A stretch of DNA of 64,000 nt from Sclerodactyla briareus (taxonomy: Eukaryota > Echinodermata > Holothuroidea > Dendrochirotida > Sclerodactylidae), in contig JAODTK010004888.1 in NCBI GenBank assembly GCA_026419785.1, positions 617,238 to 681,237 on the forward strand, given 5' to 3'. Below the pieces are notes generated by a model. That model was not told where the DNA came from. It did no database searches and saw only the letters and a list, made by a program, of their open reading frames with translations. Of this stretch, positions 9,001 to 45,692 are shown in pieces. The translations under genes were made by a program, and so were the position numbers. Positions within the stretch are counted from its first letter, which is position 1, and the number at the start of each line of letters is the position of its first letter.

Positions 9001-12000
9001 CAGGATTTGGGGAACAAAAATCACTAATTAAGTAAGGTAATTGGCCTATTTTATGTAATCTATTGTTCGAGCAGGCTCGTTAGCAAGATTACAGATGAAC
9101 CGTAGGTGCTATGGTGACTTGGTTTGGCACATAGATGTGGGATATGAAGTAGATGTACTGATTAGATTTTCTCATCGTCAAATGTGGTAATTGAGAGTCG
9201 TCTAATTTTTGCATAATTTATGCAAAATTCAAAAGTTTGTCGGATTTTTTTCATTACACAGAACATCAACCTTGATTATTCACTAGTAAAATTGTATTAT
9301 TCAATAAGGTTGGAGGACACTGGAGGTCATTCAGTGTGTCTATTTCGCATGGTGTTTCCCAAATTTCAAAGTTGGTTTGATTTTCCTGAAGCAGCTTGAT
9401 TGGTATGGTCTACCTTAGTTTAGTCCCCCAAAATGTTAACATAACATTGACTCGAGTCACTGGGGGTTATGCCGTGTGTATAAATTGTTCCATTCATACA
9501 AATGTTCAAGTTTGTTGAATTCCCATGAAATGTATTAAGTGTGGTCTTGAGATATTGAAAATGAGCATATGGGTCAATAGGAAGTTGAATATTGTGTCTA
9601 ATTTGCATAATTTAGGCGGTCTTAGTCACATTTCCACAAAACTTATACTTTTTAACTACTTCATTAGACCATTGTCAAGTAATCAGTCTTTACGAATTTG
9701 AAATTGATCACTGATTAGTAGGGTGTTGAATGCTATACCAAAATCATAAAGCACCATGAAATGCCTTGTACTTGTTTCATGGTGACTATTAAATGGAAAC
9801 ACTGATCGTGCAACCAGCGAGACACCTGGGGCGATCGCCTTGTCTTGGTGGACATTCAATAGAATACTTCATTCGAGGCTGTAGGGCCCTGATTGGCCGC
9901 ACTGGTGAAAATGGTAATTTTGCATATGAAAGCAAACCAGTTACAGCTTATACTCTTCCCATGTATTGCTTTGCTTGTGTGAATCTGACCGTTATGGTCT
10001 GATGCTGCATTTGCATCCATGCCTATGATATTTAGCCTAACAGGGTGAAACTATCCACAGTGATGATATAGTTCTTACTTTCTCATTACAGATCAATGGA
10101 GGATTCATTAGGGAAACCTTTATTTGTAATCTTCAGGGTATGTATCGGTCTACAGTTATGCATTCTTCTTTTTTCAAACAGTACACTATTCGTGAATCTA
10201 CGACTTGCATGCATTTTGCAACCATTACCTTGCATAAATGAGAGTTATCATCATGTGAAGTTATCATGGGGATGATGATTCATCTTTATAATACGTTATA
10301 TGTTGTGGCTGTCAATCACATCGAATGCAGCAAATCCTCCGCTCCTAACTGTAGTGGTAATATTTTTTAGCTTCATCTGATCAGTGACAATTTAATTTAC
10401 TGTTTATCAGATCAATAGTAAGCATTAGAAGATTGTTTCTTGTAATAGCATGAATCTGATGAAGGGTCAGACAGTGTTTATCTTCCCTTACTGGTTGAAG
10501 AAACCAAGTTGGTTAGTGTATCGCCAATCAGAGGTCAATCAGGGTGTAAGCGTCAAACATTCCATCTATGCGGACACGGTTACAATATTTGAAGCGATGG
10601 TTCAAGATAGTGCAGGCTATCTACAAAACATGCGCATATCATCTGGATATTTTTTTGTTGTTCAGGATTCAGCCAGTGTACGGATGAAGGGACTTGTCCC
10701 GTGCAGCTGTTGACGTTAGTTTGTGGTTATGTATGAAAACACACAAACACCGGCTATAGTCTCCTCTATTACCTACATGGAAGGTGAGATTACTTTCTTT
10801 TTTACTTATTATATGTCGCCGCAGAACAAGTTGGGGGATATCAATCTCGTTGTTTATAATAATAATGTACCGTTATTATATAGCGCTTTAATATACCGAA
10901 ATACGGTCTCAAAGCGCTAAGGCCATTTACCCGACCCCCTGGTCATGTAACTTTTTTTCGGCCCGCGCCAAGTGCACATCTCGAGCTCTACCTCCTGGAA
11001 CCACCAATGGTTGCCCCCCAACACACGTCACCCCCTCCACCATGGCCGCCGTAATCAGCGCACTTGTGATTACAAGTAACCTCTCAGAGGTCCCAATAAC
11101 GCCTGGGTAGGGTGAAGCAACGGCGATTAAAGCGCCTTGCCCCAGAAGAACCGGAAAGGCCCAACGGCCGGGTTTCGAACTCATAATCTTCCAAAAATTC
11201 ACGGTCCTAAGCTATACCGAATTGAGCTATCCAATCTCCTTCTTGTCGTGTTAGCTGCGGTCTCTGTTGAACGCCATGCTGCTGTCTCTTGCTGGGAATT
11301 AGCGCAATATCTATCCAAGCTTGGTTTTGAAAGGCCTGAAATTTGGTTGCATGTCCGCCGATAGGAGAAATCTTTGATGGGTTCGAAAGTGGACTTTGAC
11401 ACATGAATCCACAGGCTCTGGTTTTCTGACTTTTCTGATTTCTCACGTTCGTTGGTTTTGGAAAAAACTCGGTGAAGAAGATACCTCTGGTCCTGGCACG
11501 AGGGAGGTCAACAGAGGTCAAATTTGCAAACTTTATGCAATTTTCTAAATTTGAGGGATTGAAGGAAATTTGGGGGATACCGACTACATTTGGTCCCTAC
11601 AAAAGTTGAGGTGTTTTTAGGTCATCGGAAGTCAAATTTGTAAAATTTATGTATTTTTTTTTTAAGTTTGGACAGAATTCACATGAAAAGCGTGGATGTG
11701 GACGCATTTGATCTAACAAAAGGTAAGGTCATGGAGGTCCCCAGATCCTCTGATCGTGGGATATTAAGAGGAGTGTGGAGCCTCATTCCTCTTCTAGTTT
11801 CCAATTTATGATCACTACATGTAACTAGGATTGTGCTGCACCCCATACAGATCCACACCAAGAAACCACCAGCGGTATGTGTCAGCGCTATTATTCAGGT
11901 GTCATTCAATGATCATAAACCGGCTGATTAAAGCGATTTCATACTTTACTAATCCACAATGCTTCTGTGATGTTAAACAACAGGTTGTCTGTCTGTTTGT

Positions 12001-15000: not shown

Positions 15001-18000
15001 ATAGGTACATTTGCTAGGATGCAGTTGCGTTGTAAGTTTTTATCCCGCGATCGGATTCTAAGGTCAACTTTTGTTCTCATAGTCACTACACAGTTAGCAG
15101 TCACATTTTTATGGCTGCTGCCAGGGCATACAGTTTTGCATTTATTTTTAGGCCAATTGGCTGAATGAATCCACTTGAATTTCTGGAGCAATGGAATGGC
15201 GGCTGCGGTCTTCGAGCGTGGACTCCAGTCACTGTAGAGATACCTACGACAGTCATCGTTCTGGACAAAGACTAGTTTTGGGGAGACGCTGCAGTTGATG
15301 TCCAAAAAAAGCTGGCAGCAACAAAGACAATGGGAGGCCACTGTAACCAGATGTACCGCCACCATAGGATGGTAAATGGCATGCCCAGCTTGTCTATCCC
15401 AATGGCCTGCTGTCGGGGTTGCCCCAGTCACTTCTGTCGTTATCCAGCGAGTACAGAGCACTGCTGTGCACTCGGTTACAAGATAAAACGCAGAGATATC
15501 TCACCCTATTTCCGGATAGTCCATGGTTCTGTTGATCGCCGTATTTAGTACAAAACTCTGACCCTAAATACATAAACACCCCCCCACCAGGCTTTCACCA
15601 GGATATGGTGACATGATCACTTAATAGTCCTAAAAGCAACCTAGGGTCCGGCAGCCAGGTCTTGATATGTGTGCCAAAGATGCGCTCAAAGTATAACGTT
15701 TGTAGGGGTTTCAGAGTGCTGACACCTGCATGTTGGAACTCTATTCCGCAGAGCATTCGAGACGCGCCAATTTGGGTCATTCAAGTGTAGCGTTACATTG
15801 TCTTGTTTAATCATGAGTTGTTGTAAACACTTAGAGCAGTCTTTGACTGATTAAGCGTATATAATACTGTATTCTCTACTATTCTGTAGAAAGAAAAACT
15901 CTCAGAGCAACTGTGGGTATTCAAAATTAGGATACCTGGTGGGGCGGACCACTGCAGTCTCTCTCGATTTTAAGATTCTACGCCTGCCGTAACCTAGCCA
16001 TAGAGCAAATGTGACTGGGTGTTACACCGACCGTACAATTTGGAATAAAACTTTTATGTAAGGAGGTGACAATACAGTGAAACACCTGGAAAATTATTTG
16101 TTCAATCATTTGTTTCGTAATTTTGACTCAAATGCAACTGAAATCAGTGTTCTGTACTTCTGTGTGTTTTAAATTGAAACGTTTTCAGTATTTAAACCCC
16201 CAAAGCATCTCGAAATAATGAGGATCTCAAAATTAGATGGAAATGAAGTGAGTTGATCACGGACTCCAGTGAAAAATTTTCTTTTTTTGGGTGTTTTGCT
16301 GATTATACGGCTTTGTCACAAAAAAACTGAACCATTTCAGTCATTCAATCCCCAAATAGCTTTAAAAGCTACTCCGAAATTTGGCTGCAGATGTCATTCC
16401 CTCTGAATACTTCCAAACTAGGAAAAACCCATTACAAAATCTGACAGAATCCAACGCACATACGCACTCAGACACACAAAGATAATGGTAAACAATTTCG
16501 AGTGCACCTCATTGCTGCGGACCACAGCACCCACGGTACCCACCATAGGCTAACGGCTGATGTAAGTGTCAGTATTGCGATGCTCATCTCCAATTCAATA
16601 ATTGGCTGATATAATTTCTTTTACATCACAAACATAAGATTTATTATGTCCCCATTTTGTTCTGTCTTTCCCAGTTTGCAGAGGCTGCGATACCCAACAC
16701 TGATTTGTTACAGAGATGTATCCTGTATGAACTCTACAAAGGTAGGTTATGCTGCGGTAGAGTTTGTGCAAACTCTTCATGTTGTCCAGTTGATTTGTAC
16801 GAGTATGGATTCTGTATCGAATCTACCCAGGTAGGTTATGCTGCATAGGGTTGGTGCAACTCTCATTGTTTGTCAGTTATTGCTACTGAGTATTGTATAC
16901 TGTATCGACTCTACATAGGTAGGTAATGCTGCACAGAGTTTGTGCAACCCAATGGGTTGTCAGGTTGATTCGCTACGAGTATTGCATCCTATATCGAAGC
17001 TACACAGGTAGGTTATGCTTGTGGGTTTGTTGCAACTCTCATTGGTTTTTGTCAGTTGCTTTGCTATCTGCGTATTGGTATCCTGTAATGACTCTCACCG
17101 TAGTTATGCTGTGCAGGGTTGTGCAACTCTCATGGGTTTGTCAGTTTATTTGCTACTGGTATTGTATCCTGTATCGACTCACATAGGTGGTAATGCTGCC
17201 CAAGATTTGTGCAACTCCCATGGGTTGTGTCAGTTTATTCGCTACTGAGTATTGTATCCTATATCGAAGCTACCCAGTAGGTTAATGCTTGGAGGTTTTG
17301 TGCAACTCTCATTGTTGTCAGTTGCTTTGCTACTGCGATTGTATCCTGTAATGACTCTCACAGGTAGGTTATGCTGTGCAGGGTGTGTGCCACTCTCATG
17401 GGTTTGTCAGTTTAATTTCTCCTGATTATTGTATCCTGTATCAAAGCTACACAGGAAGGTTATCTGGTAGGTTCTTTTCAACTTTATGTGATTGTTGTTG
17501 TCAGTTGATTTGCTACTGCGTATTGGTTATCCTGTCTCAACTATACACAGGTAGTTATGAAGGTATCTTCATGACTGTAGTTGTCCCAGTTCACTTCACT
17601 TCCAAATCGATTTGCTGCCTGTCATATCTCTGCTCTGTTTCACACTTTTTCATGTTGTGATAAATTGTCACCCCTGGTGGTTCAGTCTATAATGGTGGTG
17701 TAGATGTACTGTCATCAATTAGGAAGCCCTAACGCCCTAACAGATTTTAGATTGGAGTCGTTATGAGAAAGCTGCCAACCCATACTATCGGCTCCAGCAT
17801 GAAAGTCATATTATAACGAAGAAAAATATGAGTGCAATTCTGTACCCAATTATCATCATCTAAATTTCCATCTTTATCCATATCAACGAGGGTGGGATGC
17901 AGGCAACTTTCTTCCAAATGCATTCGTTCCTTGAGAGTTATGACTGGAACCTCTGCAATAATTCTTCTGGACTAAACTCAGTCCACATTTTCTTGGCCTC

Positions 18001-21000
18001 TTGTCGCCTCAATACCAGTTATCTTACTACCCATTTATCTTTCTTCATCCTCTCTAGTCAGTGCATATCAAGCTGGATGGGAGGGGGGGGGGGGGGTTGG
18101 GGTGGGGGGGGGTTGTTTGTCACCCCATGTGGGCCTAACAATTTCTTAACACAAAAAACCTCCTGTCACTGTTTCAGTAGGTGATACAGCTGTTTTCAAC
18201 TATAAGACAGCATTTCTAGGGCCCATAAATTGCATTTATGTGCCAATATAGAGAGGGTGAGGCTATGATGAGGGCAACTTCCCTTGAAAAATGAGCCGCT
18301 AAGACGAATCTCTCAATATGCCACTGTCTCTATCTAGGGCCCAGAACCACAACAGTCTTCTTTTTTTTCCACAATAACTGATCCTACTAAACTTGGCCAA
18401 TTCCCAAACCCCTCTCATGACTCCCACATGAATTTAGGTGTTTCTTTCAGAACAGCCCATAGACCTTTTTGCAAATAGCTTGTTGCGTTGCACCGTGGGA
18501 TAGTTTCGATGCATGCTGGGATACTTCAGGGGGCATTTTGTGTTATCATGTATTGGAGAAAACTTGTAAATTCTAATAATTTTCCCATTCTTGTGTGCCT
18601 AATTCTCCTCTCAACATTTAGTATGTTCTCTCCCCAATAAATTTTGGCACATCTCTCTCGTGACAAATTTGACTGAAATGTGTTATTTCTCTCTCGCCAC
18701 GAAAAATAAATTTTATCCACTGAAATTCCTATTGGCCTTCCATAGTTTGCCTAATTTGCCCCCTGAGCTAGACCACAATGCATTGTGCAAGGCTTTTTGT
18801 AAGGTACTATGTTGAGTCCTAAGCTAAAATTGTTCTCTTTGCAGTTGCAAGCACTGATCTGTAGAATAATGCAGGGGGATGTGAGTTATCAGAGGATCAT
18901 TGGCCAAGGTTGTAGGTAAGAGTTTCGTCTATTTTAACCTTATTGAATAGTTTTCCCTGCCAGGGTAGCAGTGTTCTCCTACTGTTGTATGATAACATGG
19001 TTTCCAGCTTTACCTAAAAAGTCCTGGAATTTGATGAAAAATGCTTTGAATACTGGAAAAGTCATGAAATTCAGGTCAAAATGCTTCCATTCCGAGAAAA
19101 ATCATGGGAAATGATCTCTTGGTACCACCTTGCCAAAACTACACATCCCACCAGCACAAAACTTTCCAGATCCCCCGCCCCCCCCCCCATACATATCAAC
19201 AATAACATCGGGAAAATATGGAACAAATTAGTTGCGTTCTCACAGGGTGGGACAGTTTGAAAATTGGCAGTAATAATGTAGCTATGAGGATAATCTCATC
19301 TGATCCCTCCGAGTTGTCTTTGTTAAGCACGTGCAACTAAAATCCATGAAAAGGCCTATTTTAGCTCAAGCCAAACTTTCTCATTACTCCAATTGTACCC
19401 ATATGAGCAAGTAGCAATGTTTTTGCTGATTGAAGGTGCATCGTTATCTCTCAACACCAGCCAATGATGGACGTTGCCGTTTACATTACTTCATGACAAA
19501 ACTTTTTTTTCCATCAGAACTAATTTTACATTGACATTGTGGCTATTCATCTGCACTGGGACCATGTAAGAGGTAATGTTCCAGACATGGCCATCGCTTT
19601 TCTGCTATTTCTCCTAGTCGCTTTCTGACGCAGTGCCCCCTTCGAAAACCAATTCGAATCATGATCTATATTCTGATTATTCCTGTACAGAGGCGACCCT
19701 GAGATGGGAGACATTTGAGCAGTATTGTGTCTGGCAGCTACTCTCCGCTCATGACATTGAAGTGGAGCATCTCCTCCCTGTAGTCTCCAAGCTCAAGTAT
19801 AGAGGTTTGTAACTCCATCAAAGATTCCTCCTGAACCCCTTCCCCGGTACACTTGATGATTTACCCCAAGCCCATCGTGTTGAAGTGGAGCATCTCTTCT
19901 CCCTGTAGTCTCCAAGCTCAAGTATAGAGGTTTGTAGTAGTACCACCATCAAAGATTCCTCCTGAACCCCTTCCCCGGTACACTTGCTGATTTACCCCAA
20001 GCCCATCGTGTTGAAGTGGAGCATCTCCTCCCTGTAGTGTCCAAGCTCAAGTATAGAGGTTTGTAACTCCATCAAAGATTCCTCCTGAACCCCTTCCCCG
20101 GTACACTTGCTGATTTACCCCAAGCCCATCGTGTTGAAGTGGAGCATCTCTTCTCCCTGTAGTCTCCAAGCTCAAGTATAGATAAAGGTTGTATTTTCAT
20201 CAAAGCTTCCTCCTGAACCCATTCCCCGGTACACTTGCTGATTTACCCCAAGCCCATCGTGTTGAAGTGGAGCATCTCCTCCCTGTGGTTTCCAAGTATA
20301 GAGGTTTGTAACACCATCAAAGCTTCCCTCTCAGGCTCCCCCCAGTCTACTTGCTAATTTCCCCTCATCCCACCAGGTTTTAGTGGCAAGCCCTCCTCTC
20401 TGTGTACCCCAAGCTCGAGTACGGAGGTTAGCTCCAGCGAAGCCCCCCTCCCCCGTTCCTTGCTCCCTAGTCCACTCGCTGGTTTGCCCTCATGTTGGAG
20501 TTATACACCTTCCTCCCTGTGGTCTCTGAGCTCAAGTATAGATGTCACATAGCTGACAACCCCCCCCCCCCCCCGCCCCCCACTCCCTTGTCTGGACCAC
20601 AAGCCTACTCCACTAGCTCTCATACGATAATGGTCTGTATGTGCCTATAGTTCAGTGGTTCCCAACCAGGAACTGTGGAAACTCAGAAGTTTTAACTGTA
20701 AACCCCTCCTCTGCTGACCCTGACACATATATATGGCTGTACATGGTTGTACTGTCTATTCTGTCCTGACTGCATTAAAACACATACACATTTTTACCAT
20801 AACAAATATATTCTTGAGGGAGAACAGCTAAAAATTCTGATTGGCAAAGAAAAACTGAAAAAACTGGTCAAGACCCCTTGATATAGGTGTTTCTCCTACA
20901 CCAGATAACATGCTCCATGGATTGGCATGGATTCAAGCTCCCAAAGGCAGCTAATACATCTCCCAGTCGTGCTTGATATCCTCGCGAGTCCCAAATTGAC

Positions 21001-24000
21001 CTTGGGTAGTGAGGAGTATTGGGGATGAGGCCCAATGTACTAACATGTACTATACAGAACAAGTTTGATGGGTCACTAGTTAGCAGGATGGGGGGAGGGG
21101 GGCAGGGGTATCTGCAGTACATGGGAGCTTGCTCATTACCATATCACTTTATCTCTCAATCTGTCCCGGGGCTCTGTTAGATACTGAACTAAGACTAAAT
21201 AATACCCAAAGTATGACAGTATACTTGAAATAATGGCTGCTGGAATAATCAACTATGTTAACCAATATGCATGTTCCTAATTGAAATGCTAAAAAAAAAT
21301 GAACAATTCATTCATTAGCTGTTACTGGTGCTGTATTGTCATATTCCAACCAAGAGCCGATCTATTCCTGTGACCTGTCTCTCCGTAGATCACCCAGAAG
21401 CCATCGCAAGTCTCCTACTAATGCTGAAAATGGAAAGGTATGGTGACCATTCCACCTCTTTGTGCATTTTTCTCAGGTGGTAAATAACAGAACTAATTGC
21501 TCATTTGTTGCAACACATTCCATGGTGACAGTCAGTTGCTTCTACAAGCTGCTTACTTTTTCAGACATCCACCAACTGATTGACCAAACAAGAACTGTGG
21601 TATACCCCTCCTCGAGCACTACCCCCATCCCTAGACATTAGTGACAATTTGGTCCTAAGATTGACGGGAAGGCCCCTTACCGAAAAAAGTTACTGTCTGA
21701 AAAAATCCAAGTCAATGGGCCATTTTCCGAATGGAGCATGGGGACCTGTGCGGTTCTCCACCCAATCTGGGAGGCATTGCTAGCTGGGAACTAAATGGGA
21801 GATAGATATTAAACATTTTATACTTCAACATTTCGGGTAGAGTATCTCTCCGGTGGAATAGGTCCCTGTATATGGTAAGAGGTGATCAACAGGGTGGACA
21901 TACACCTTCCGTCAATAAATTAATCAAACCTATATGTGCATGATTTTTGCGCATTGTAAAACATCTTGTTGTGGAGCTGTATCGGCCAATTGGGCAAAAC
22001 TAATCAGAGAAGCTGGTCTGACACATACCTGGCAAAAATGGTGCACTGTGTCTTCTGTCACAGGACATTAAATACTAGTTTGTCAATTTGAAGGTCCGTG
22101 GAAGTGAATACTCACATTTGTCAGATTGCATGGGATTGCGTTGAAACTAGCATAGATGAAAAGGGCATGTTTGATTACCCCAAATCCCAGGTTTGGGATT
22201 CCAAACCCCTCTCATTTTTGTGTTATCTACGTCATGAGGCGAACCAAATGAATGTCGCCCTTCAGTTTTTGCTTATTCTTTACCCCTTCCTAAGTAAAAA
22301 GTGCACGTTATTGAATGAATGCTTGCATCTACATATTCTTAGTAATTGTGTGCATATACATCCAGATCAGGTTCTCCACGCTGCTCCCGTAACAGAGATT
22401 TAAAGTGAATTTTGTGTCAACTTTGCATTGAGCAGTATTTCTCTTCCCCCTAATGTCATAAGGATGTTGGACAATAGGAACTTTCTCAAATTCCAACTGC
22501 ATTCAGTTTTGGGTATGGATTCTCTTCTTATACTTATCAGAATGATCCACATTCTAAAATAATATTAATAATAATGTATCGTTCTTATATAGCTCTTTCT
22601 ACCTTAATTCGTCTAAAAGCGCGGAGGCATTACTTCTGGTCAATGGTAACTTGTTTGGCCCGCACAATGAAGACACATCTCGGGCTATACACTCCTGGCA
22701 ACCGCCAACGGTTGCAGCCCACAGCAGGTCCTCAGGACATTCAGCACATGGCTGCCATAATTAGTGCACTTGTAGATTACAAGTAACCTCTTAGAGGTTC
22801 CCAATGACTCCTGAGTAGGACGAGGCAACGGAGGTCGCACCGGAAAGGCCAACCAGCCAGGTTCCAAACTCGGAACCTTTCGATCACAGGTCCTAAGCTC
22901 TACTGGCTGAGCTCATCCGATCTCCGAGTAATAGAATCATCCTCTATTGACTACATTGGATTCTGGGTTTTTTTCCAGGGCCTCCCCTGAACTGCTTAAG
23001 CCCATGCTGCTGAGGAGCTTTGACAACTGTGACCAGTTCACCACATCCCTCCTCAGCCACTGGGTCACACAAGACGAGCAGCTGCTGGCTGAAATCTTCA
23101 AGGCGATGCTCATGAAGTCACCATCAGTGCCAAGAGGTTAAGACAGAGGTAAGCTCGTAAAAGTTTTGTTTAATAATAATAATGATAATAATGAAAATGA
23201 TACTATACACAAGAATACAGTGCCCTAATCAGTCAAGATTGCTCTGAGGCACTTCACAGACTAAAAAACCAAAACAAGAATTAATAGGATTTAGGATTGC
23301 ATTCAAATCTGTCCAAGGCCCAAAATTCTGTGTTCAGTTTTGATAAGTTATAAGGAAATGATCAAATAAAAAGACCAGTCAGCACATTCAGCTAATTACC
23401 CTCTAAGCAGTACAAACAATAACATAAGGCAAAAGTGTTCATCTCCATGGCTGAGATCAGTGTGCCCTGCAGCTGACAATGAGATAGTGTGTTATGAACA
23501 GATGCAAGGCATTCAACTAATTGCTGTCAAATCCGGTATCAATCAAGTACAATGTTTGACACTCTAGCCATGCTGTGACAATCCCTCATTAGAATCAATT
23601 CAACTATTCTTATCCAAGTCAACAGTTGTGCCTCTGTTTAAGTAAATGTTGTGAATGTAGTTGACCATTTGATAAATACTCACTCCTAATTGAGAGGATA
23701 CTGGAACAAGCTACATATTCAGGGTGATGTCATATCCAAAAACTAGAGAAGAAATCGGGGTAGGAACTTCGGTAATTCTTGGCCTGTATAGGTAGAAAGT
23801 ATTGACTGACATCGCTCCTTCTTTCTTCAACGGCAGACAAACACCAAAGCATCCCACACCAGAGCAGCTCCTTGGTCACCTGAATAACCTGAGGCTGACA
23901 GCGGCTATCAAACAGACCATGTGTAAGTTACTGTCAGAGAAGGAGGGGGGGGGGGGGGGGGAGGGGGGGTTGGGGGGTTAGAGCAGCTTCTTGGTCACCT

Positions 24001-27000
24001 CAGTAACCCAAGGCTAACAGCGGCCATCAAATAGACCATGCGTAAGTTACTGTCAGAGAAGAGGGAGGGGGGGTTGGGGGGGGGTCAGAGCAACTGCTTG
24101 GCTACCATGAAAACCTGAGGATAACAGCGGCCATCAAACAGGACTATATATAAGGTACTGTCAGAAAAAGGGAGGGGGTGAGTTGTTGGGGTGAGGGGGG
24201 GGGGGTTAGAACATCTGCTTGGTTACCTCCATAACCTCAGTGTAACAGCGGCCATCAAATAGACCATGCGTAAGTTACTGTCAGTGGAGGGGGGGGGGAA
24301 CAGCTGCTCGGTCTCCTCGATAACCTGAGGGTAACAGCAGACATCAAACAGGCGATGTGTAAGTCTTTGTCATGGGGGAGGAAGGGAGGAGGGGGGAGGG
24401 GGGCTGCTTGGTCACCTCAATAACCTGAGGCTCACAGCGGCCAACAACAGTCCTTGTGTAAGTTACTGTCAGGAGGGAGACAGGTATCTTTTGTGTCTCG
24501 AAGAACCGAATCCGGAACAGTTGAGGCTTCATATAGTTTCTACTTCCCTATCAGTACACATCCAACTCATGTGGAAAAAAGGAGACTCAATTTGGTGTCT
24601 GGGAGTAGGATGTAGTTGTGGGGTTCCCATGGCAGATTTGAAGCATAATTGACTTCTTTATCTGTTTGCCTATAGGCATACCAGTCAAGTCCAGATACAA
24701 AGAGTGTTATGTCATACATACAGAGTGCCCCTTAGCCTATTATGTCTCATTCTTGCAAATTCGAGTCTACAATATCCCAAACTGGCAACCCCCATGATCC
24801 TCTTCATCATCAGAAACAGAGTTCAATAGTTGCACAGTTATACCAAGATTTTTTTCGAGAGTATCCTACCATTCCTATTTATCGACACTGAGAAGAAGAA
24901 TCATTGCAAGAATTTGTCCTCTAAACAAGGACTGGGTATGTGTTTTCTTTCTTTGCATTAAAATAAAAGCTAAGACGAGATAGCCAACATGCTACATACT
25001 AATGTAAAAATGCATCAAAATAAATGCATCAAAAGGATCCAAAGAAACAACTGTCTTCTTACTTTAATCAAGCATGGGGAAAGGGCAATAGGTCTGGATT
25101 TAGATTCGCTAACATGCCAGGTTACAAGTGACAGAGCTGTTGCCAAGTCACTTTTAATTCAAGTCGCAAGTCATTTTTTCCAAGAGTCAAGCCGAGTCTC
25201 CAAAAAGTGCAGTCAGTTCCAGAAAATACTCTCAACAACACTGACATGTGATTAATCAATCAATCTGCTGACGCAATTTTAAGTATTCAAAATCCTTTAT
25301 AATCTTGATCTACAGTTTTCAGTCAGGAGCTCTCCTGCAAGGCTTGCAACACCTTCAACATTCCTGCAGTGATGCACAGAAGACCAAGTAAGTTACCATC
25401 TAAACTGGCCATCTATATCAGTGGCATGACTACTGACATGACATGACTACCATTTTCTCATTTGGATTCTTTTACATTTTTATTAGACTATTTAAAGATT
25501 TAATTGAATACTTCTGTGGCCATCCAGTGTTGTGCCTGTTTCTATGTTCATGTCTGCTTGTCTGTTCTAACTTTTTCTCAATGGTCTATAGTTCTTATCT
25601 AATTATGTGCAAGTGTGAAATTTCAAAAAGGTTATCTCATCTTATCTTGCAACATATATTGGATGTTTATAAACCTGTGTGCAATAAATTGAGTTGAAAG
25701 GACATTCTTCTTCAATGAGGTGCACAGGTTGTTGAATGGACCAAGTGTAATCTTTCATTAAATAAAATATTTTGAACTATCGCACGAAAAGAGAGAACTC
25801 ATTATCTGTTTTTATGTCTCGCCTGGCATGAATTCAGGAAAGACTCAGTGGTCGTATGGCGTGTGTGTGTCCACTTTCTGTCATCAAGGATTTGCACAAA
25901 ACCATGATGCCTGATTATGGCGAAATTTTTTGTGTAGGCACCGGGGTTGGTGGCACAATCTGATTAGATTTTGGGCAGCCAAATCATCTAATTAAGTTGG
26001 GTAATAAGCACATTTTATGTAAATCATTGTTTGAAGCTCGTTAGCGAAATTGTGCAAGAACCGTATGTGCTACAGGTATGAGTTTGGCATTTGGGACTGA
26101 TGACATAGGGTAGATGAACTGATTAGAATTTCAGCCTGAATAATGCTAATTAAGTGGTTCTAATTTCATAATTTATGCAAAATTTTCCAATTTTCAGATT
26201 TTCAATTTTCACGAAACTGGTGGATGTGTCTACCACCTGGTTCCCGAGCAATTTCAGGGTCACTGGAGGTCATTTAATGTGTCTAATTTGCATATTTTTA
26301 TGGCATTTTTGAAAGTTCGTTGGATTTCCACAAAACTCGGTCGATGTGACCCACCTTTGATCCAGATCATTTTGAAGGTACAGCTGGGGTCAGTAGAGGT
26401 CATTGTATGTGCCTAATTTTGCATCATATACTCCATTTCCAACTATAGTACGAATTCCGCGCCAACTCAGAGGTAAGGGGGGGGGGGGGGTGTGGTGAAC
26501 ATTTGCTGAATCTGAATGTTTCATGTTAAGATTTTGTTGGATCCCATCTTGTAAAATCTTGGTAGATAAAGCACGAGGAATGAAGTAAAACCATATCTCA
26601 GGGGACAATTGTGGCGTAACAGCTGTCCACAAGCAAACCCTCTCTTACCCAACCAATTTGATTTAGTTGATTAGACATGCAAAAAATACATAACCATTTT
26701 TTCCCCTCTCTTCTTGCCTGGGGATTGGGGACAAATGTGGAGGTTTCATGAAGATATATTTTGGGACATCCTTGAACTGCTGCGTGGGAAGTTTTTGTTG
26801 GTTGTGTGGGGGAGGGGTGGGGGAGGGTGTTTGGCTCGCTGGCAGGGAGGGGGGGGATGGCATTCCTGGCTGCTTGGAAAATAGAAGGCCAATGAATAAT
26901 GAAGGAAATGATTTTAAAAGGCAAAGAAGCCCAGGCTGCTAAGGGGATTTAGAACATTTCAAGATGGATTTTGGGTCAAAGAAGTGAGTTGACTGAGTGA

Positions 27001-29785
27001 TAAAACTTTATTCAAATTTGCGGTATTTAGGGAGGAAGAGTGGGGGGGGAGGCATGAGGAAGAAAAAAGCAATTAAGGGACTTTCATAATAAGAGTCAAA
27101 CTTATTGGTCAGTTATTTTAGGAATTTTTATTGTTATATGTGAAAATATGTGAGTTCCGTTGACATGACGATGGTCTGCATGAACTAGTTGTTTGATAGT
27201 GTGTGTAGTGTTGGGAATGATAGAAACCACAGACGTGCAACCAGGCGAGACACTTTTTTCGGATTGCCTTGTTAAAAAATATCAACAGGATTTGGGAACT
27301 TCTTGAGGGTATTTATAGGTCCGTGTAGCCAAAACTGTCTATCAACAAACGTGTTTTACACATTACGAAAGGAGGCACGTTTCGGTGGGTCTATTTACTT
27401 GCCCTGCACAATGATGTATATACTTGCCATTATTTAAAGTTTGACGTTTGCTTAGAGCAAGGGCCATGGAAAGGGCAACCATCCAGCAGGGATGGCATAG
27501 GCAACCTACAGCAGGCAGGACTAAATTCTAGCCCGTGAAGCTGCTTGTTCTGACCTGCTCGATGGAATACATGTTAGGGCTTGCTTCTCTCCACTCAAAA
27601 GAGCAAATCAAGTTGGGCAGTAGAGGCACCTTTAGAAGAAAACTACCTTGCACTTGAAACTGCCTTACATCCAAGCGTCAATTTGATCCGGGATGCCACC
27701 CAATAAATACTCCGGATTAAGAGTCATGTGAATGGACTTGATTACCTTCATTGTAGTAGCATGGTCCATCTTCAATTTGTGCACCGAGCACTCTTAATGC
27801 AATATTTCTTTTTTATGAACTCCGATTCCAAATAATAATAAAACCAATAGAATCACTTTCTCATGCTCTTCAAAATGATACAAGTAAAAATTTGTTACAT
27901 TTTCTTTTTCTCAGGAAGTATATAAACAGGGTACCAGGAGATATTCAATTTCCACAACAAAAGTGCATTTTGAGAACGCTAAAAACTATGGGACGGTGCC
28001 AAGACTAAAACCAATTATCCAATTCCGAGTTAGTCTACCACTTAGGGGCTATGAATCAGTGTTGCTAGGTATGGGACAGGTGCGCAAATCGAAGTGGGTT
28101 GACGATATACATTGCTAGTCCTGTGAGCTCCACGGGAATGCTCACTGCTGGTATGTTGTGTTCATGCATGCCTACTAGAAGGTTGTGGTGTGCACATCTG
28201 CAGAAGGTTCCACATACCTGCTTTACTTAGGGCATTGTTAGTCCTGTGAGCTCCACAGGAATGCTCACTGCTGGTATGTTGTGTTCATGCATGCCTACTA
28301 GAAGGTTGTGGTGTGCACATCTGCAGAAGGTTCCACATACCTGCTTTACTTAGGGCATTGTTAGGCCTGTGAGCTCCACAGGAATGCTCACTGCTGGTAT
28401 GTTGTGTTCATGCATGCCTACTAGAAGGTTGTGGTGTGCACATCTGCAGAAGGTTCCACATACCTGCTTTACTTAGGGCATTGTTAGTCCTGTGAGCTCC
28501 ACGGGAATGCTCACTGCTGGTATGTTGTGTTCATGCATGCCTACTAGAAGGTTGTGAAGTGCACATCTGCAGAAGGTTCCACATACCTAGAGCATTGAAC
28601 CTGTGAATTCTCCTGGCTGGCTGTCTCCTGCCCCACAGTAATAGTTTAAATGACTATTTTCAGCCAGACAAATTTTAGCTACATAGGCAGGTCATTCTCA
28701 TTGGGTCTATTATCTGTGCCAAACTGAGTGGTTGGCACAGTTGGTAGAGCGTCGACCTTCTACCCGGGAGACCGGGGTTCGATATCCCGGTCGGGTCATA
28801 CCGAAGCGACTATAAAAATGGTACCGTGTTGCCTCTCCCTGATGGACGCTCAGCACAAGGAATTGGAGCAGGGACAAACCAGGGGTAGGCAATTTGCAAG
28901 TTGCCGTCTGCATGTGATTACCCCACCCCCACATAAGGTACCACCCTTGCCAAAGAGGCAATATTGCCTTATCCGTGTTACCCTGGTGGGATTCGCCATC
29001 GGATCAAGGTCGCAGTATCCAGGTCTGCATTCTTGCTGGGCCTTGAATAGGAACGATCCTCTACTAGGCCAAGTAGACCACAAAAAATAAAAGGTTCAAA
29101 TCTAGAATTTTAACAAATTCTCCAGGTGAAATAATGTTTTCATGTCAAATTCTTATGACCCTCATTGTTCAATCCACACTCCCATGTTATGAGATGGTAT
29201 TTGTTGTTGCAAACCATCCAGTTCAGTGACCTATTTGAACTGTTGGAGGTTATCGAGGAACCTGTCGAGGACCACTAGAAGCCGGGTCGCAAAGAGGTCA
29301 CCAAGCTACTCATCAAGTCCCACGAAACCCAAGAAACAGTCATCACTCTTGGAGACTCTCTCCTCAGAATCTGATCAGGTATGTCCATTGTCACCTGGGA
29401 CATTCTTGACCACTCAAGAGTGGAAAATAGCAGAGGGGTATCAGTGATGCTTAGAGCTTTGTCTATCCTTGGGCTTCATCCTTGTCTTTGTTGATGTAAG
29501 GTGCTCCAGAGTGGGATAGCCCTCCTGAAAATGTTTTGTCTAAGAGTGGTAATGCTCTGAAGAAAAAGGCTTGACTTGTTTTCCAAGGGAAGTAGACAAA
29601 GTTTTTGTTTGCTTCAGCACAGGTCCATTATTTCTTCTGACCTACTTACCTGATACTGCACAAGCGTGGTCCATAATAGGATGCCCTTACCTCTTGTCTT
29701 CCTACCCAACAGATGATGATGATATGTCCCAAGCCAAGGCAGGATGAACGGAGAAGAGTCAACAGTTGGATCCTACAGCGACTAG
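1..29785 (+). CDS. INTS3: Integrator complex subunit 3 gene, 3' half (spliced, 5' end outside window)
   Basis: INTS3 is a helical-repeat scaffold of the nuclear Integrator complex, which cleaves nascent snRNAs and attenuates transcription; it also nucleates the SOSS complex that binds single-stranded DNA at breaks. I recognise the gene from ordered peptide blocks matching my recollection of vertebrate INTS3, from the acidic mid-protein linker to the last residues: SIKETEG, GKPLFVIF, EEDVILCLL, LQALICRIM, WETFEQYC, DHPEA, DQFTTSLLSHW, EQLLGHLNNLRL, LQGLQHLQ, FSDLFELLE and a terminal GSYSD followed by TAG. Each block sits between AG and GT borders. I place 16 exons; the exon expected between 10.14 and 11.85 kb was not found. 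Several exons need a one-base frame change, so either the assembly has indels or the copy is decaying. Introns are 0.3-4 kb and full of repeats. The protein name is certain to me; exact exon ends are less so. Confidence 0.9.
24..177 (+). CDS. INTS3: INTS3 exon, acidic linker region
   Basis: The exon follows a TTTTTTGCTCTGCAG acceptor and ends before GTAAGG. Reading from base 24 gives AKTHRDEGSHTDTSTPPESL, then a stretch ending NRQEPF. After the C run near 130 the frame moves so that DAAFS is read, then returns to DDDEEKK. Vertebrate INTS3 has AAFSDDEED at the matching place, so two one-base indels are likely in this exon. The segment is low-complexity and acidic, joining the N-terminal helical repeats to the C-terminal half. 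Confidence 0.7.
178..1110 (+). other. INTS3 intron
   Basis: This intron is AT-rich and unique in the window. It contains a phrase built on 'catggaaaagtcagggaa' that recurs loosely near 420-470 and 19.02-19.10 kb ('gtcatgaaattcagg'), so a diverged dispersed repeat may be present. I see no coding block. Confidence 0.5.
1111..1247 (+). CDS. INTS3: INTS3 exon (IKETEG block)
   Basis: The acceptor is CCCCCTTCCCCCTTCACAG and the donor is AG|GTGAGC. The 45-codon open frame ends SIKETEGLIIKPFLEQMDGD and then IKEICQHLLNQR, which parallels the vertebrate sequence IKETVVEEPVDITPYLDQLD. The first 14 codons (TPQQTAHKPPTCSS) are not conserved. The phase does not join cleanly to the preceding exon, so one base may be missing or extra in one of them. 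Confidence 0.8.
1352..3320 (+). repeat. Tandem array, about 7 copies of a 300-340 bp unit
   Basis: The anchor 'ggatggtcaagttcatactt' recurs in variant form near 1369, 1669, 1992, 2332, 2648, 2970 and 3287. Each unit carries a 'gggttccccata' block, an AGGTCA-rich block, 'cacgataagtccagaatgcc' and a 'gggaaaaattgggaaa' block. Copies are diverged with many indels. Two more distant copies lie at 34.88-35.29 kb, so the unit is a dispersed repeat that expanded inside this intron. Unlike the arrays at 16.7, 19.8 and 23.9 kb, this one contains no exon sequence. Confidence 0.85.
3628..3690 (+). repeat. tRNA-like segment, probable SINE head or tRNA relic
   Basis: 'tagctcaattggcaggttgc' resembles an A box, followed by a possible anticodon arm (CTTGC loop GCAAG) and 'agagttccgcggttgccc' at the place of a B box. 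The T loop lacks a clean GTTCGANNC, so this is unlikely to be a working tRNA gene. It may be the head of a decayed SINE in this intron. Confidence 0.35.
3870..3934 (+). CDS. Weak candidate INTS3 exon
   Basis: A good acceptor (TTGTTTTTTCAG) precedes an open stretch read as CDERSKCGKVDSLCAVIL. Vertebrate INTS3 has GSDTEAQCEVMQEIVDQVL at the place expected between the exons at 1111 and 6391. Similarity is slight, the donor GTTTAT is poor and the phase does not match the upstream exon, so this could be chance. Confidence 0.3.
6391..6491 (+). CDS. INTS3: INTS3 exon (LPDEV block)
   Basis: The acceptor is CTCTCTCAATAG and the donor GA|GTAAGT. One frame gives AEHSSVPWWAVQQSLRLV and the next frame gives QMLPDEVNTE, matching the order SEQLSV ... 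GEVLPEEITEE in vertebrate INTS3. A stop early in the exon and a frame change before QML show two indels. The 3' phase (GA plus A) joins exactly to the exon at 10092. Confidence 0.75.
6492..7775 (+). other. INTS3 intron segment
   Basis: I see only unique AT-rich intron sequence here, with no coding block or repeat array before the minisatellite at 7776. Confidence 0.4.
7776..8085 (+). repeat. Minisatellite, unit about 33-37 bp
   Basis: The unit reads roughly 'tagccaggacattaccagga' followed by 'cttatgctagttt'. About eight diverged copies are present, with the 'agccaggacatta' core recurring most faithfully. It lies wholly in the intron. Confidence 0.8.
8390..9823 (+). mobile_element. Non-autonomous element, copy 1 (CCAGCGAGAC end)
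   Basis: This region shares order and sequence with 25816-27251: a GTGTGT tract, 'gattagattttgggca', 'ctaattaagt', 'ggctcgttagc', 'gaaccgtaggtgcta', 'cataatttatgcaaaatt', ending in 'gtgcaaccagcgagacac'. The left terminus is not clean here, so this copy may be truncated. No transposase frame is visible. It contains an internal tandem duplication at 8545-9080. Confidence 0.65.
8545..9080 (+). repeat. Internal tandem duplication, unit about 225-235 bp, 2.3 copies
   Basis: 'taattggcctattttatgta' followed by 'atctattgttcaggctcgt', 'agcattttcagtgtaaaata' and 'tcatcaaaggtc' is repeated twice with high identity and begins a third time at 9030-9080. The duplication is local to this transposon copy; the copy at 25.8 kb has the segment once. 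Confidence 0.75.
9824..10091 (+). other. INTS3 intron end
   Basis: Short unique stretch leading into the acceptor TTTCTCATTACAG at 10091. Nothing further is seen. Confidence 0.4.
10092..10137 (+). CDS. INTS3: INTS3 exon (GKPLFVIF block)
   Basis: This 46 bp exon lies between ATTACAG and GTATGT. Joined to the preceding exon in phase it reads ESMEDSLGKPLFVIFR, very close to EESVGKPLYLIFR in vertebrate INTS3. It ends on a codon boundary. The next expected block, beginning NLCQ in vertebrates, was not found before 11.85 kb. Confidence 0.9.
10850..11225 (-). mobile_element. tRNA-derived SINE with L2-like tail, copy 1
   Basis: Read on the minus strand, the head near 11230-11150 contains 'gatagctcaattcggtatag' (A box-like) and GAGTTCGAAACCC (B box). 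The tail near 10850-10900 reads 'gcgctatataataacggtac' then 'attattattata'. The same family occurs at 22565-22925 with about 75-80% identity by eye. The ATT-rich tail resembles the 3' end of the L2-type LINE at 59.06-59.17 kb, which suggests mobilisation by it. Confidence 0.75.
11851..11898 (+). CDS. INTS3: INTS3 exon (small, YVSALLFR)
   Basis: A 48 bp open stretch lies between CCCCATACAG and TTCAG|GTGTCA. In the frame that joins in phase to the exon at 13554 it ends RYVSALLFR, at the place of GYHLLYYLRAS in vertebrate INTS3. The preceding residues (STPRNHQ) are not conserved, and another frame gives TKKPPA, which resembles QKQPKI, so an indel is possible. Confidence 0.5.
12060..12475 (+). 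mobile_element. LINE 3'-end remnant (RTE-like)
   Basis: The segment ends 'accattaggaagggcatcca' plus 'gtgtaaaaacact'. This wording is familiar to me from the 3' ends of RTE-type LINEs and their SINEs in many animals. No reverse transcriptase frame is readable upstream, so only the tail was copied or kept. Confidence 0.4.
12476..13553 (+). other. INTS3 intron segment
   Basis: Unique intron sequence. Minus-strand open frames at 12469-12738, 12872-13111 and 13171-13476 have no splice context or family match that I can see. Confidence 0.4.
13554..13637 (+). CDS. INTS3: INTS3 exon (KLHVYEEVA block)
   Basis: The acceptor is CTCTCTCCTCAG and the donor CAG|GTGAGT. The frame reads EGNKLHVYEEVARNKSAVTD followed by QVSREGF and aligns with GKMNLYESFAQATQLGDL of vertebrate INTS3. 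Its phase joins exactly to the exon at 11851. Joining to the exon at 14772 is off by one base. Confidence 0.75.
13638..14771 (+). other. INTS3 intron
   Basis: Unique sequence with no repeat array. It ends in the acceptor GTCTTCTTTTAG. Confidence 0.4.
14772..14829 (+). CDS. INTS3: INTS3 exon (EEDVILCLL block)
   Basis: This 58 bp exon lies between TTCTTTTAG and CAG|GTAATT and reads LNKEEDVILCLLRSACTP. The vertebrate protein has CQEDDVRLLCHLTPS at this point. The frame is open throughout. Confidence 0.8.
14830..16674 (+). other. INTS3 intron
   Basis: No array or transposon is recognised. The minus-strand frame at 14979-15461 (160 codons) is the longest here but lacks any conserved motif. The intron ends in TGTCTTTCCCAG. 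Confidence 0.4.
16675..16741 (+). CDS. INTS3: INTS3 exon (LLQRCILYEL), 3' end captured in array
   Basis: The exon follows TGTCTTTCCCAG and ends AAAG|GTAGGT. It reads IPNTDLLQRCILYELYK, matching in length and pattern PDETLRSGELLNMIVAVI of vertebrate INTS3, directly before the LQALIC block of the next exon. Its last 40 bases and the donor are repeated in the adjoining array, which supports the exon end. Confidence 0.65.
16702..17560 (+). repeat. Exon-junction minisatellite ('mirage' type) of INTS3, about 9 copies
   Basis: The unit, about 85-105 bp, starts with the last 40 bases of the exon (consensus 'gatttgctactgcgtattgt' plus 'atcctgtatcgactctacacag'), crosses the 5' splice site (GTAGGTTATGCTG) and continues with about 45 bases of intron ('tttgtgcaactctcatgggt' plus 'ttgtcag'). 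The junction recurs near 16830, 16918, 17008, 17098, 17187, 17277, 17363 and 17455, sometimes with a damaged GTAGGT. No acceptor or 5' exon part is copied. Confidence 0.9.
17561..18844 (+). other. INTS3 intron with G-run
   Basis: Contains an interrupted G tract at 18079-18112 ('tgggagg' then long G runs broken by TT and T). No coding block is visible. It ends in the acceptor TTCTCTTTGCAG. Confidence 0.5.
18845..18915 (+). CDS. INTS3: INTS3 exon (LQALICRIM block)
   Basis: The exon lies between CTCTTTGCAG and TAG|GTAAGA and reads LQALICRIMQGDVSYQRIIG then QGCR. Vertebrate INTS3 has LQELVCHVMMGNLVMFRKDS here, with the hydrophobic positions shared. Confidence 0.9.
18916..19690 (+). other. INTS3 intron
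   Basis: Unique sequence with a C run at 19178-19190. A short phrase at 19.02-19.10 kb resembles one in the first intron of the window. It ends in ATTCCTGTACAG. Confidence 0.4.
19691..19804 (+). CDS. INTS3: INTS3 exon (WETFEQYC block), 3' end captured in array
   Basis: The exon reads ATLRWETFEQYCVWQLLSAH then DIEVEHLLPVVSKLKYR and ends AGAG|GTTTGT. WETFEQYCAWQL and a following PILQHLKYK are signature blocks of INTS3. The phase joins exactly to the exon at 21389. The last 46 bases (from GAAGTGGAGC at 19759) and the donor are the start of the adjoining array. Confidence 0.95.
19759..20545 (+). repeat. Exon-junction minisatellite of INTS3, about 7 copies of 123-131 bp
   Basis: Copies of 'gaagtggagcatctcctccc' plus 'tgtagtctccaagctcaagt' plus 'atagaggtttgta' begin at 19759, 19882, 20013, 20136 and 20264, then in diverged form near 20377 and 20495. 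Each contains the coding end of the exon, the 5' splice site AGAG|GTTTGT and about 75 bases of intron ('ccatcaaagattcctcctga' ... 'gatttaccccaagcccatcg'). The first five copies are nearly identical, so expansion is recent; some carry a TTC insertion or a small insertion before the junction. Confidence 0.95.
20546..21388 (+). other. INTS3 intron
   Basis: Starts with a C run at 20560-20580. The rest is unique and has no coding block. It ends CTGTCTCTCCGTAG. Confidence 0.4.
21389..21437 (+). CDS. INTS3: INTS3 exon (DHPEA block)
   Basis: This 49 bp exon reads DHPEAIASLLLMLKMER in phase with both neighbours. The vertebrate equivalent is EHPEALSCLLLQLRREK. It is bounded by TCTCCGTAG and GTATGG. 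Confidence 0.95.
21438..22564 (+). other. INTS3 intron segment
   Basis: Unique sequence before the SINE at 22565. The frame at 22098-22403 lacks splice context. Confidence 0.4.
22565..22925 (-). mobile_element. tRNA-derived SINE with L2-like tail, copy 2
   Basis: The minus-strand head 'ggatgagctcagccagtaga' is an A box, and GGTTCCGAGTTTGGAACC stands where the B box should be but is damaged. Middle blocks such as 'taagaggttacttgtaatct' and the tail 'gagctatataagaacgatac' then 'attattattaatattatt' are shared with 10850-11225. Both copies lie antisense to INTS3. Confidence 0.8.
22979..23148 (+). CDS. INTS3: INTS3 exon (DQFTTSLLSHW block)
   Basis: The exon reads ASPELLKPMLLRSFDNCDQF then TTSLLSHWVTQDEQLLAEIF and KAMLMKSPSVPRG before a TAA. 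Vertebrate INTS3 has DDQFTTSILRHWCMKHDELL, then LLIKNNSLPRKRQSLR. The TAA is removed by a one-base shift that yields LRQR up to the donor AGAG|GTAAGC, so an indel is the simplest explanation. Confidence 0.95.
23149..23836 (+). other. INTS3 intron
   Basis: Unique sequence with a short AATAATAATG microsatellite at 23172-23195. It ends TTCTTCAACGGCAG. Confidence 0.4.
23837..23922 (+). CDS. INTS3: INTS3 exon (EQLLGHLNNLRL block), 3' end captured in array
   Basis: The exon reads QTPKHPTPEQLLGHLNNLRL then TAAIKQTM before the donor ATGT|GTAAGT. The vertebrate block is LTLEQILEHLDNLRLNLTNT. The second half of the exon and the donor are repeated in the array that follows. Confidence 0.95.
23871..24475 (+). 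repeat. Exon-junction minisatellite of INTS3 with G-run spacers, 6 copies
   Basis: Six copies of the exon end ('agagcagctccttggtcacc' plus 'tgaataacctgaggctgaca' plus 'gcggctatcaaacagacc') followed by ATGT|GTAAGTTACTGTCAG start near 23871, 23980, 24090, 24208, 24299 and 24409. Each is separated from the next by a G-rich spacer with G runs of 7 to 18. The donor GTAAGTTACTGTCAG is perfect in three of the five extra copies. The exon part keeps recognisable codons (LLGHLSNPRLTAAIK in copy 2). Confidence 0.95.
24476..25315 (+). other. INTS3 intron
   Basis: Unique sequence; the open frame 24989-25255 has no recognisable motif. Ends TTGATCTACAG. Confidence 0.4.
25316..25387 (+). CDS. INTS3: INTS3 exon (LQGLQHLQ block)
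   Basis: The exon starts FSQ and, after a one-base frame change near 25330, reads LQGLQHLQHSCSDAQKTK up to ACCAA|GTAAGT. The vertebrate sequence is FFSQTPILQALQHVQASCDE. The frame change falls in 'gctctcct' and is probably an indel. Confidence 0.85.
25388..25815 (+). other. INTS3 intron segment
   Basis: Unique sequence before the inverted-end element. Nothing else is seen. Confidence 0.4.
25816..27251 (+). mobile_element. Non-autonomous DNA element with 11 bp inverted ends, copy 2
   Basis: The element begins GTCTCGCCTGG (25816) and ends CCAGGCGAGAC (27241-27251), a perfect 11 bp inverted terminal repeat. Inside it shares blocks with 8390-9823. It has no transposase frame. G-rich runs occur at 26468-26490 and 26808-26856, the latter giving spurious proline-rich frames on the minus strand. 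Confidence 0.7.
27252..28120 (+). other. INTS3 intron segment
   Basis: Unique sequence between the element and the 123 bp array. No coding block is visible. Confidence 0.4.
28121..28600 (+). repeat. Near-identical 123 bp tandem repeat, 4 copies
   Basis: 'ctgtgagctccacgggaatg' recurs at 28121, 28244, 28367 and 28490, exactly 123 bases apart. Differences between copies are only a few substitutions. The unit contains 'catgcatgcctactagaagg' and 'tctgcagaaggttccacata'. No exon sequence is included. The array ends in the fourth copy, where 'ctgctttactta' is lost. Confidence 0.97.
28728..29095 (+). mobile_element. tRNA-derived SINE, second family
   Basis: The head 'tggcacagttggtagagcg' is a good A box and GGGGTTCGATATCCC a good B box, with tRNA-like spacing. 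It is followed by a 270 bp body and an A-rich end ('cacaaaaaataaaagg'). It inserted shortly upstream of the penultimate INTS3 exon. The sequence differs from the two minus-strand SINEs. Confidence 0.8.
29222..29378 (+). CDS. INTS3: INTS3 exon (FSDLFELLE block, Ser/Lys-rich tail)
   Basis: The exon starts FSDLFELLEVIEEPVED, then needs a one-base shift at 'gaccactag' to continue TRSRVAKRSPSYSSSPTKPK and KQSSLLETLSSESDQ. The vertebrate sequence begins FSDLFSLAEEYEDSS and goes on to a Ser/Lys-rich disordered tail, so the match holds on both sides of the break. The donor is CAG|GTATGT. Confidence 0.92.
29379..29712 (+). other. Last INTS3 intron
   Basis: A 334 bp intron with donor GTATGT and acceptor TTCCTACCCAACAG. 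Nothing else is seen. Confidence 0.7.
29713..29785 (+). CDS. INTS3: INTS3 terminal exon with stop codon
   Basis: The exon opens with DDDDMSQAKA and, after a frame change at 'ggcaggatg', reads NGEESTVGSYSD followed by TAG. Vertebrate INTS3 ends GSSAVGSDSD, an excellent match for both sequence and position of the stop. The last 10 bases including the stop resemble the unit of the array that follows. Confidence 0.85.
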
Positions 29786-42480: not shown

Positions 42481-43800
42481 ACTGCGTGAACCCGCCCGAC
42501 ATGGTCGGTGCTTGGTGCACAATCCGGCCGGCGGGCCTGGACCGGGCGGGATGGCGGCTGGATATGACCAACATCCGGCCGCCACGGGGTGCGTTCAGAC
42601 CCAATTGCTGGCCCGGCAGCCACGGTCCTTGGGGTTGCGGCCATACCCCGGGACCAGCAGGTATCACAGGCCCATCTGTATCCGCGCTCGGCCGGCGCCT
42701 CTTCTTCACATCGACCATAGCGAGTTGGAAGCGGCACAAGACCTCCTAGAGTCCCCTACCCCGGAGGTACAGAACCTTTCTCCCTCTGCCTCCTCGGACC
42801 GTTAACGGTCCCTCGACAGGCCGAGAGCCATAAAGGAGCCATAAGGGTTTTGTCGTCGTAGATCTCCTCGTCCTACGCTTGGATAGCGACGCATCTCCGC
42901 CGCGGAAAAAGTCGAAGCATCGCTGAATACAGACCAAGGAGGAGGGCATGCCGCCGACTTAGCCGTGGCCCAGCATGGGTGCGTGACACTCCAGGCGCGA
43001 AGGGTGCCGAGCGGGCCAGTCCGGCGCTTTTGCCGTATCTTCTCCCTTCTGAATCGGAAGGCCCCTCCACGTGTGAGAGAGCCTCACGAACTCGGTTCCG
43101 GTGTCGGATGCTGTAACACCCCAGAGGCCTCTCCCGGACGCGTTGGGATCGACCCGTCATGGGCCGTTCACGGGCGTCCCCCCGTCACGGCGGGGATACC
43201 CTGCTCTAGGCGACAGTACCTCGATTTTCACAACCCACACGGTTGAGGGAATCGACCGGCCTGTCCAAGTCACCTTCACAGGGTTTGCTTAAGGTCTGGG
43301 ACAGCGGTTTGTGAAAACGACGATAAAGCTTCTCCTGCTTTCTGCCTCAGGGGACAAATTTCCAGCTGACTATGCCGCCGGGGCCTTGACGTCTTCCCCA
43401 ATCGATGACCAGCCGGATCCGCATTGGAGGCCTCTGCGCCTGACTCGGGGACAAAGCGACCAGTCCTCGACAGGCTCAGGGTCGGGATTGACTGAGCAAA
43501 TAGCGGTCAGCTCTACCTATTCTACGCCGACCGCGGCTTCCCTCACTGGTCCATGTCTCCAGCACAAGCCCAAGTGGCGAAGAGCATCCTCTCCACCATG
43601 CCCGTGCCGGCTCGCTCGCAACACCCAACCGCTCCTAACTAACGGCAGAAACCCGGGCGCGGGCACTCCAATCCAGGCCCAGAACCGAATTGGCCGTGCC
43701 AAGGCCCCCCCCGGTAAGCGCCCGGCGGGTTGGGTCCCAGCCTTGTCCTAGCTCACTAGACCACTAGAGCCGAAGGCCGCCTCTCTAGAAGAGTCGGAGA
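42481..43800 (+). other. GC-rich non-repetitive segment, possible 28S rRNA 3'-end or spacer relative
   Basis: Text at 42850-42995 ('ggatagcgacgcatc', 'gtcgaagcatcgctgaatac', 'cccagcatgggtgcg') has the flavour of the variable 3'-terminal domain of invertebrate 28S rRNA, but the universal 28S core just upstream of that domain is absent. It is therefore at most a diverged fragment. No coding evidence. Confidence 0.3.
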
Positions 43801-45400: not shown

Positions 45401-45692
45401 CGGAACAAGGGAACCTATCCAGGGCCGTGTGGCTGGGCCGCACGGCATGTCGGCACGTCGCAGGGGCTGTCCGCATGCTCGCAACGAGCTCTGGGTAGTA
45501 TGGGCCTACCCTCATGGCAAGGATGGAACCGCTGAAGGAGTCTTCACGAGATCTGTCCCGCCATCGTCTACCACCCATGTCGAATGCACACCGTGCATGG
45601 CACGGCCAACCGCTAGTGGCCCTGTGCTAGTCTGGTGCATTGTCCGGGGCCAATATGGGTAGTGATATCTGAAATAGATTTCACCCAAAAAA

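Follow-up and report, generated by a model that had tools for sequence, protein, structure and literature searches.

Tandem arrays repeating exon ends and 5' splice sites in the INTS3 gene of the sea cucumber Sclerodactyla briareus

We analysed a 64-kb stretch of the Sclerodactyla briareus genome (contig JAODTK010004888.1, positions 617,238 to 681,237; hereafter the window, always meaning the whole stretch), which carries exons of the gene INTS3 and, among them, three tandem arrays, referred to as A1, A2 and A3. An earlier note on the window had named the gene, and both matches agree with it: the exon translations, joined together, matched human INTS3 (PDB, E = 1e-37) and the Pfam domain PF24566 (HEAT_Ints3_C, E = 5e-47). 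Within the 319-Mb assembly, HEAT_Ints3_C matches at this locus only, while matches to the INTS3 N-terminal domain are confined to a site 12-14 kb before the window, on the same strand of the contig (both for 2/3 candidates). A pseudogene or lone fragment can thus be ruled out: the gene has its N-terminal exons here too, and neither Pfam domain matches elsewhere in the assembly. In total, we placed 20 INTS3 exons over about 47 kb of one strand. The human INTS3 query was checked against PDB entry 8rbz, and some exons rest on weak matches that were read together with exon order and splice signals.

The exon of A1 has weaker support. Including it in the model added 7 bits to the Pfam score in one frame and 10 bits in another, and it gave no match when compared alone with the PDB. 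This two-frame support would fit a frameshift in the assembly. Apparent frameshifts occur in at least three INTS3 exons, i.e., the one at 22979 and two upstream of the window, such that the assembly seems to be noisy in indels. For a 15-kb read-through translated in one frame, phmmer found no match, and Pfam found no family in the plus-strand read-through frames of 1-10, 11-19 and 25-30 kb, a scan insensitive enough to miss the INTS3 exons located there.

Three INTS3 exons are each followed by an array whose unit runs from the exon end across the 5' splice site into the intron, as had been claimed before. Coordinates are collected in Table 1. All three arrays were found in agreement by Tandem Repeats Finder (TRF), an edit-distance scan and self-BLAST of the window. 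The first copy is always continuous with its exon, while the 5' part of the exon and the acceptor are unrepeated; that is, self-BLAST matches (E up to 0.01) never reach either of them, in accordance with the earlier observation that these parts are not copied.

The left edge of A1 by self-BLAST lies 26 bases inside its exon, and the copies are spaced by 86-96 bases. For A2, the self-BLAST match starts at 19757 and the matches to the two oldest copies start at 19737, both within the exon; copies 1-4 are 87-98% identical and the last three are older. The left edge of A3 (23860/23861) is again inside the exon, and its copies are separated by G-rich runs of variable length. The units hold about 41 (A1), 48 (A2) and 62 (A3) exon bases and, judged from the copy spacings, about 45-55, 68-83 and 27-59 intron bases, respectively, so that for A3 the previously stated range of 45-80 intron bases does not hold. 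Long G runs stand behind several A3 donors, whereas the units of A1 and A2 contain none. At three other exons checked by self-BLAST (18845, 21389, 22979) tandem repeats are missing; the upstream flank of the last one has a single dispersed match, to 11150-11239.

Table 1. Positions of the arrays and of neighbouring INTS3 exons (window coordinates, except for the CCT1 array)
Feature	Position	Strand	Description	Basis
Array A1	16701..17562	+	10 copies of ~89 bases; exon end, donor GTAGGT and ~48 intron bases	TRF, scan, self-BLAST
Array A2	19757..20545	+	4 young and 3 older copies of ~123 bases; exon end, donor GTTTGT and intron	TRF, scan, self-BLAST
Array A3	23861..24471	+	6 copies with a core of ~76 bases; exon end, donor GTAAGT and first intron bases	TRF, scan, self-BLAST
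CCT1 array	L031 4537-5107 (G000:C219)	-	exon ending ENLATSL, then ~5 copies 110 bases apart	
INTS3 exon	10092..10137	+	upstream of A1; 3' end read by eye	tblastn, E = 0.06
INTS3 exon before A1	16675..16741	+	apparent frameshift	Pfam extension, AG/GT context
INTS3 exon	18845..18915	+	edges without array	PDB human INTS3 match, self-BLAST
INTS3 exon before A2	19691..19804	+	56% identity to human INTS3 800-835	tblastn, AG/GT context
INTS3 exon	21389..21437	+	edges without array	PDB human INTS3 match, self-BLAST
INTS3 exon	22979..23148	+	edges without array; in-frame TAA at 23139, probably an assembly frameshift	tblastn, self-BLAST
INTS3 exon before A3	23837..23922	+		PDB human INTS3 match, tblastn
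INTS3 exon	25316..25387	+	downstream of A3	tblastn

Such arrays are not confined to INTS3. A fourth one lies in CCT1 (TCP1-alpha), on a 10-kb stretch of another contig that was chosen for a chaperonin family match. Its unit consists of the last ~21 exon bases, the donor GTGAGT and the intron start, i.e., it is built like those of A1-A3, and four other CCT1 exons show edges without repeat in self-BLAST. The five CCT1 exons counted below are tblastn stretches with 150-base flanks, for which the donor was placed exactly for the array exon only, and the counts leave out a sixth, gapped match. Three further chaperonin loci (L008, L010, L011) carry no TRF array and stand outside the counts. When 199 open reading frames at array edges (outside the three INTS3 arrays and the window beyond 40 kb) were screened and those scoring 3.5 or more were read by eye, 10 were submitted to Pfam, and one of them was CCT1 (E = 1e-8), the others being at most weak; 10 further, mostly GC-rich frames gave 0/10 matches. 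Separately, the CCT1 coding sequence is broken by a G-rich segment of about 70-80 bases between VVP and EAALS (L031 5120-5190, minus strand), which is either an assembly fault or a short G-rich intron.

We compared the four arrays with each other in six pairwise BLAST searches (E up to 0.01), which yielded nothing but a match of 14 bases on opposite strands between A2 and A3. Since the units have no sequence in common, an origin from a mobile element is ruled out. Within an array, divergence between copies is mostly 10-40%, except among the first four of A2. The donor GT is lost in 3/9 (A1, with the tenth copy omitted), 1/7 (A2) and 1/6 (A3) aligned copies, i.e., it is retained in 17/22, the real donors included. 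Ranked by conservation within the unit, the donor hexamer takes position 42/84 in A1 and 46/118 in A2 and is thus no better kept than the remainder, such that most copies look unconstrained. Selection on the copied donors is rejected on these ranks for A1 and A2, a rejection that does not cover A3.

We also scored the donors against the consensus CAG/GTAAGT, using for each copy the best GT no more than a few bases away from where it was expected and leaving out the CCT1 copies. Among the copied donors of A1-A3, 13/20 score at least as high as the real donor of their own array. Because many copies fit the consensus equally well or better, the position of a donor, i.e., being first and next to the acceptor, likely decides on its use. 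In A2, A3 and CCT1, splicing at the second donor is predicted from the sequence to introduce a stop in frame, while in A1 a stop lies just behind the second donor and the 89 added bases would shift the frame. We thus reject the possibility that splicing moves on to the next donor to give a longer product. Given these stops and the frame shift, productive alternative splicing from the tandem donors, which the earlier note had considered, appears unlikely, and splicing very probably uses the first donor.

To relate the arrays to chance, we counted tandem repeats using TRF. The 47.8 kb of the gene hold 12 arrays with a unit of 25 or more and a total of 4.9 kb, and 42 arrays are found in the 297 kb sampled, which include most of the INTS3 gene. 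Random placement of units of the same lengths as those of the 12 arrays in the gene (with basic units of 89 for A1 and 110 for A3) yields on average 0.22 donor-spanning and 0.20 acceptor-spanning units. The automatic overlap test flagged A2 and A3 only, A1 being one base short of the cut because the best TRF row places its start at 16734 (16703 and 16717 in other rows). With regard to the side of the exon, 3/18 placed INTS3 donors but 0/16 placed acceptors lie in arrays (Fisher p = 0.23; 2/20 donors and 4/20 acceptors were not placed and are omitted). Together with CCT1, this amounts to 4/23 donors vs. 0/21 acceptors (Fisher p = 0.11; sign test 4 to 0, p = 0.125).

In our assessment, the arrays are probably ordinary tandem duplications that chanced to include an exon end and are tolerated since the true donor comes first. 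The frequency of tandem arrays in this DNA counts for this explanation. The geometry of the arrays, the continuity of the first copy with the exon, the decay of the copies and their unrelated units are seen directly, and from these we infer duplication, exchange and a tolerance that depends on the order of transcription. An array would start when about 90-125 bases, by chance reaching from an exon into the following intron, are duplicated in tandem. Unequal exchange or slippage would then raise the copy number, and copies would decay via point and indel mutations, with the first four copies of A2 presumably homogenised recently. Such a minisatellite life is suggested by the unrelated arrays, the diverged copies and the old beside young copies of A2. 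The real exon would survive, being continuous with the first copy, and the real donor would probably be chosen because it is transcribed first and adjoins the acceptor (exon definition). Over an acceptor, in contrast, an array would set decoys ahead of the real site and should be less tolerated. If a donor bias exists, this lower tolerance would produce it without any targeting.

Several observations weigh against ordinary duplication. Under random placement, three or more donor-spanning arrays have a probability of about 0.001 and three or more boundary-spanning ones (donor or acceptor) of 0.006, both uncorrected for a finding that was first picked by eye. In A3, the donor hexamer has stayed well conserved (rank 5/114). 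CCT1 adds a fourth array at a donor and none at an acceptor. Both of these would fit targeting as well.

Targeting would mean a mutational process at exon ends, for example one in which tandem duplications are seeded by breakage or template switching where a 5' splice site is transcribed or where an intron starts G-rich. The four donor-side arrays in two genes with none at an acceptor, the clustering of three in one gene against the uniform expectation and the G runs behind A3 donors speak for it. However, the donor/acceptor contrast reaches only p = 0.11, A1 and A2 lack long G runs, and an acceptor-side case is described for the amphioxus globin gene BflGb6 (PMC3087553). In addition, we searched the 319-Mb assembly for three copies of a donor 8-mer with gaps of 60-90 bases, using the reversed pattern as control. 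For AGGTAAGT we obtained 8 matches vs. 47 in the control and for AGGTGAGT 44 vs. 15; the 8 and 44 matches correspond to about 5 and 15 separate sites by reading of the match lists. The periodic acceptor motif TTTTCAGG gave 0 matches with 0 in the control and thus says nothing on a side bias. Single motifs in the 297 kb occur 10, 8 and 19 times (controls 15, 9 and 12). This test is crude, i.e., it counts matches rather than arrays, a satellite can inflate the control, and A1-A3 and the CCT1 array, lacking the required motif form, would not be caught by it. On these crude counts there is no consistent genome-wide excess at donors, which the earlier note had proposed to look for, and its idea of a mechanism aimed at exon/intron junctions finds no support. 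We consider such a process improbable. Two donor-pattern arrays (G000:C2735:156232-156978 and G000:C440:256634-256786) have by eye a unit that looks coding up to the donor.

Pure coincidence, with arrays anywhere in introns and three of them on donors by luck without bias of any kind, has an equally small chance in our view. Arrays are frequent and the finding was selected by eye from the whole window, but the placement probabilities for donors and for any boundary are low, and another case turned up in the sole other gene with mapped exons, CCT1. That the copied donors are functional, as U1 decoys, as a guard against early polyadenylation or in the tuning of splicing, is very improbable: the GT is kept in most copies, several of which are good donors, and the A3 hexamer is among the best-kept parts of its unit, but the donors of A1 and A2 show no extra conservation and copies decay by indels. 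An assembly artefact from collapsed or falsely repeated reads, which the apparent frameshifts might suggest, is hardly credible given four arrays on two contigs whose copies (the first four of A2 excepted) mostly differ by more than such noise.

A wider reading, which we put forward tentatively and rather doubt, is that in this genome a sizeable share of introns begins with a decaying array of exon end and donor while acceptors are spared (4/23 vs. 0/21). The bias would stem from donor-seeded duplication or from transcription order, and the arrays would supply new donors across introns and thereby feed intron and exon evolution. In any case, INTS3 with three arrays and CCT1 with one are a concrete place to ask how splicing picks the first of similar donors. 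They also allow one to ask whether exon-end duplications arise more often or are only retained more often.

Further repeats were observed in the window. Between the INTS3 exons at 25316 and ~29222, the stretch 28110-28588 holds about 4 copies of 123 bases that are 98% alike; the unit contains a donor-like GCTG/GTATGT but no known exon. Close by, 28728-28840 has a tRNA-like head followed by GGTCATACCGAAG and looks like a short interspersed nuclear element (SINE), perhaps akin to MetaSINEs; ARAGORN called no tRNA in the window. The DNA from 40000 to 45500 is GC-rich and contains units of about 90 bases that recur, along with long open frames to which Pfam assigned no family; here, the translations of L016 and L027 resemble each other by eye. 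Finally, TRF reports a run of about 127 C with mismatches at 62144-62270.

Among known systems, introner-like elements are repeated sequences with splice signals, and the arrays share this property. They differ in that the copies are tandem and local and that arrays of different exons have no common sequence by BLAST.

The Rogers model of intron gain, as cited in PMC3087553, proposes a tandem duplication over AGGT. In this outline, it likewise involves a tandem duplication that includes a splice signal, but here the donor within the unit is one that already existed, the copies occupy the intron following it and no new intron position is seen. That is, the arrays are located in the introns behind the A1-A3 exons, with a further INTS3 exon after each, rather than bounding a new intron. 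Arrays of different age make the published step from mirages to intron gain testable, and A2 offers young and old copies side by side.

The closest counterparts are the amphioxus 'mirages', to which the earlier note had likened the arrays. They are described in PMC3087553 and PMC3902484, through which the original Adh mirage work is cited, as minisatellites spanning exon/intron boundaries in Adh3, the globins BflGb6 and BflGb9, PGBD5 and troponin C. This structural definition agrees with our arrays: in A1-A3 and CCT1 the tandem unit crosses the boundary by self-BLAST, with the genes identified by their human counterparts INTS3 and CCT1, and the authentic exon is kept beside the array in A1-A3 (for A1 with an apparent frameshift). 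The mirages of the globins and Adh3 are reported there as not interfering with regular splicing (PMC3087553). With regard to an amphioxus origin of the present DNA, searches with the GFP family PF01353 and with mNeonGreen gave no match, a negative that is no proof of absence, and no COX1 match was obtained either; since GFP genes are reported for Branchiostoma, and two for Asymmetron (PMC4911609), a Branchiostoma is doubtful. In contrast to this description, which includes a copied acceptor side in BflGb6 (PMC3087553), all 4/4 arrays found here are at donors, and three of them share one gene, as seen in the sequence of one assembly. A literature search joining INTS3, amphioxus and 'tandem', the only one made for INTS3, found no paper. 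A1-A3 are a real feature: mirage-type arrays as already described in amphioxus, here with three in one gene and a fourth in CCT1.

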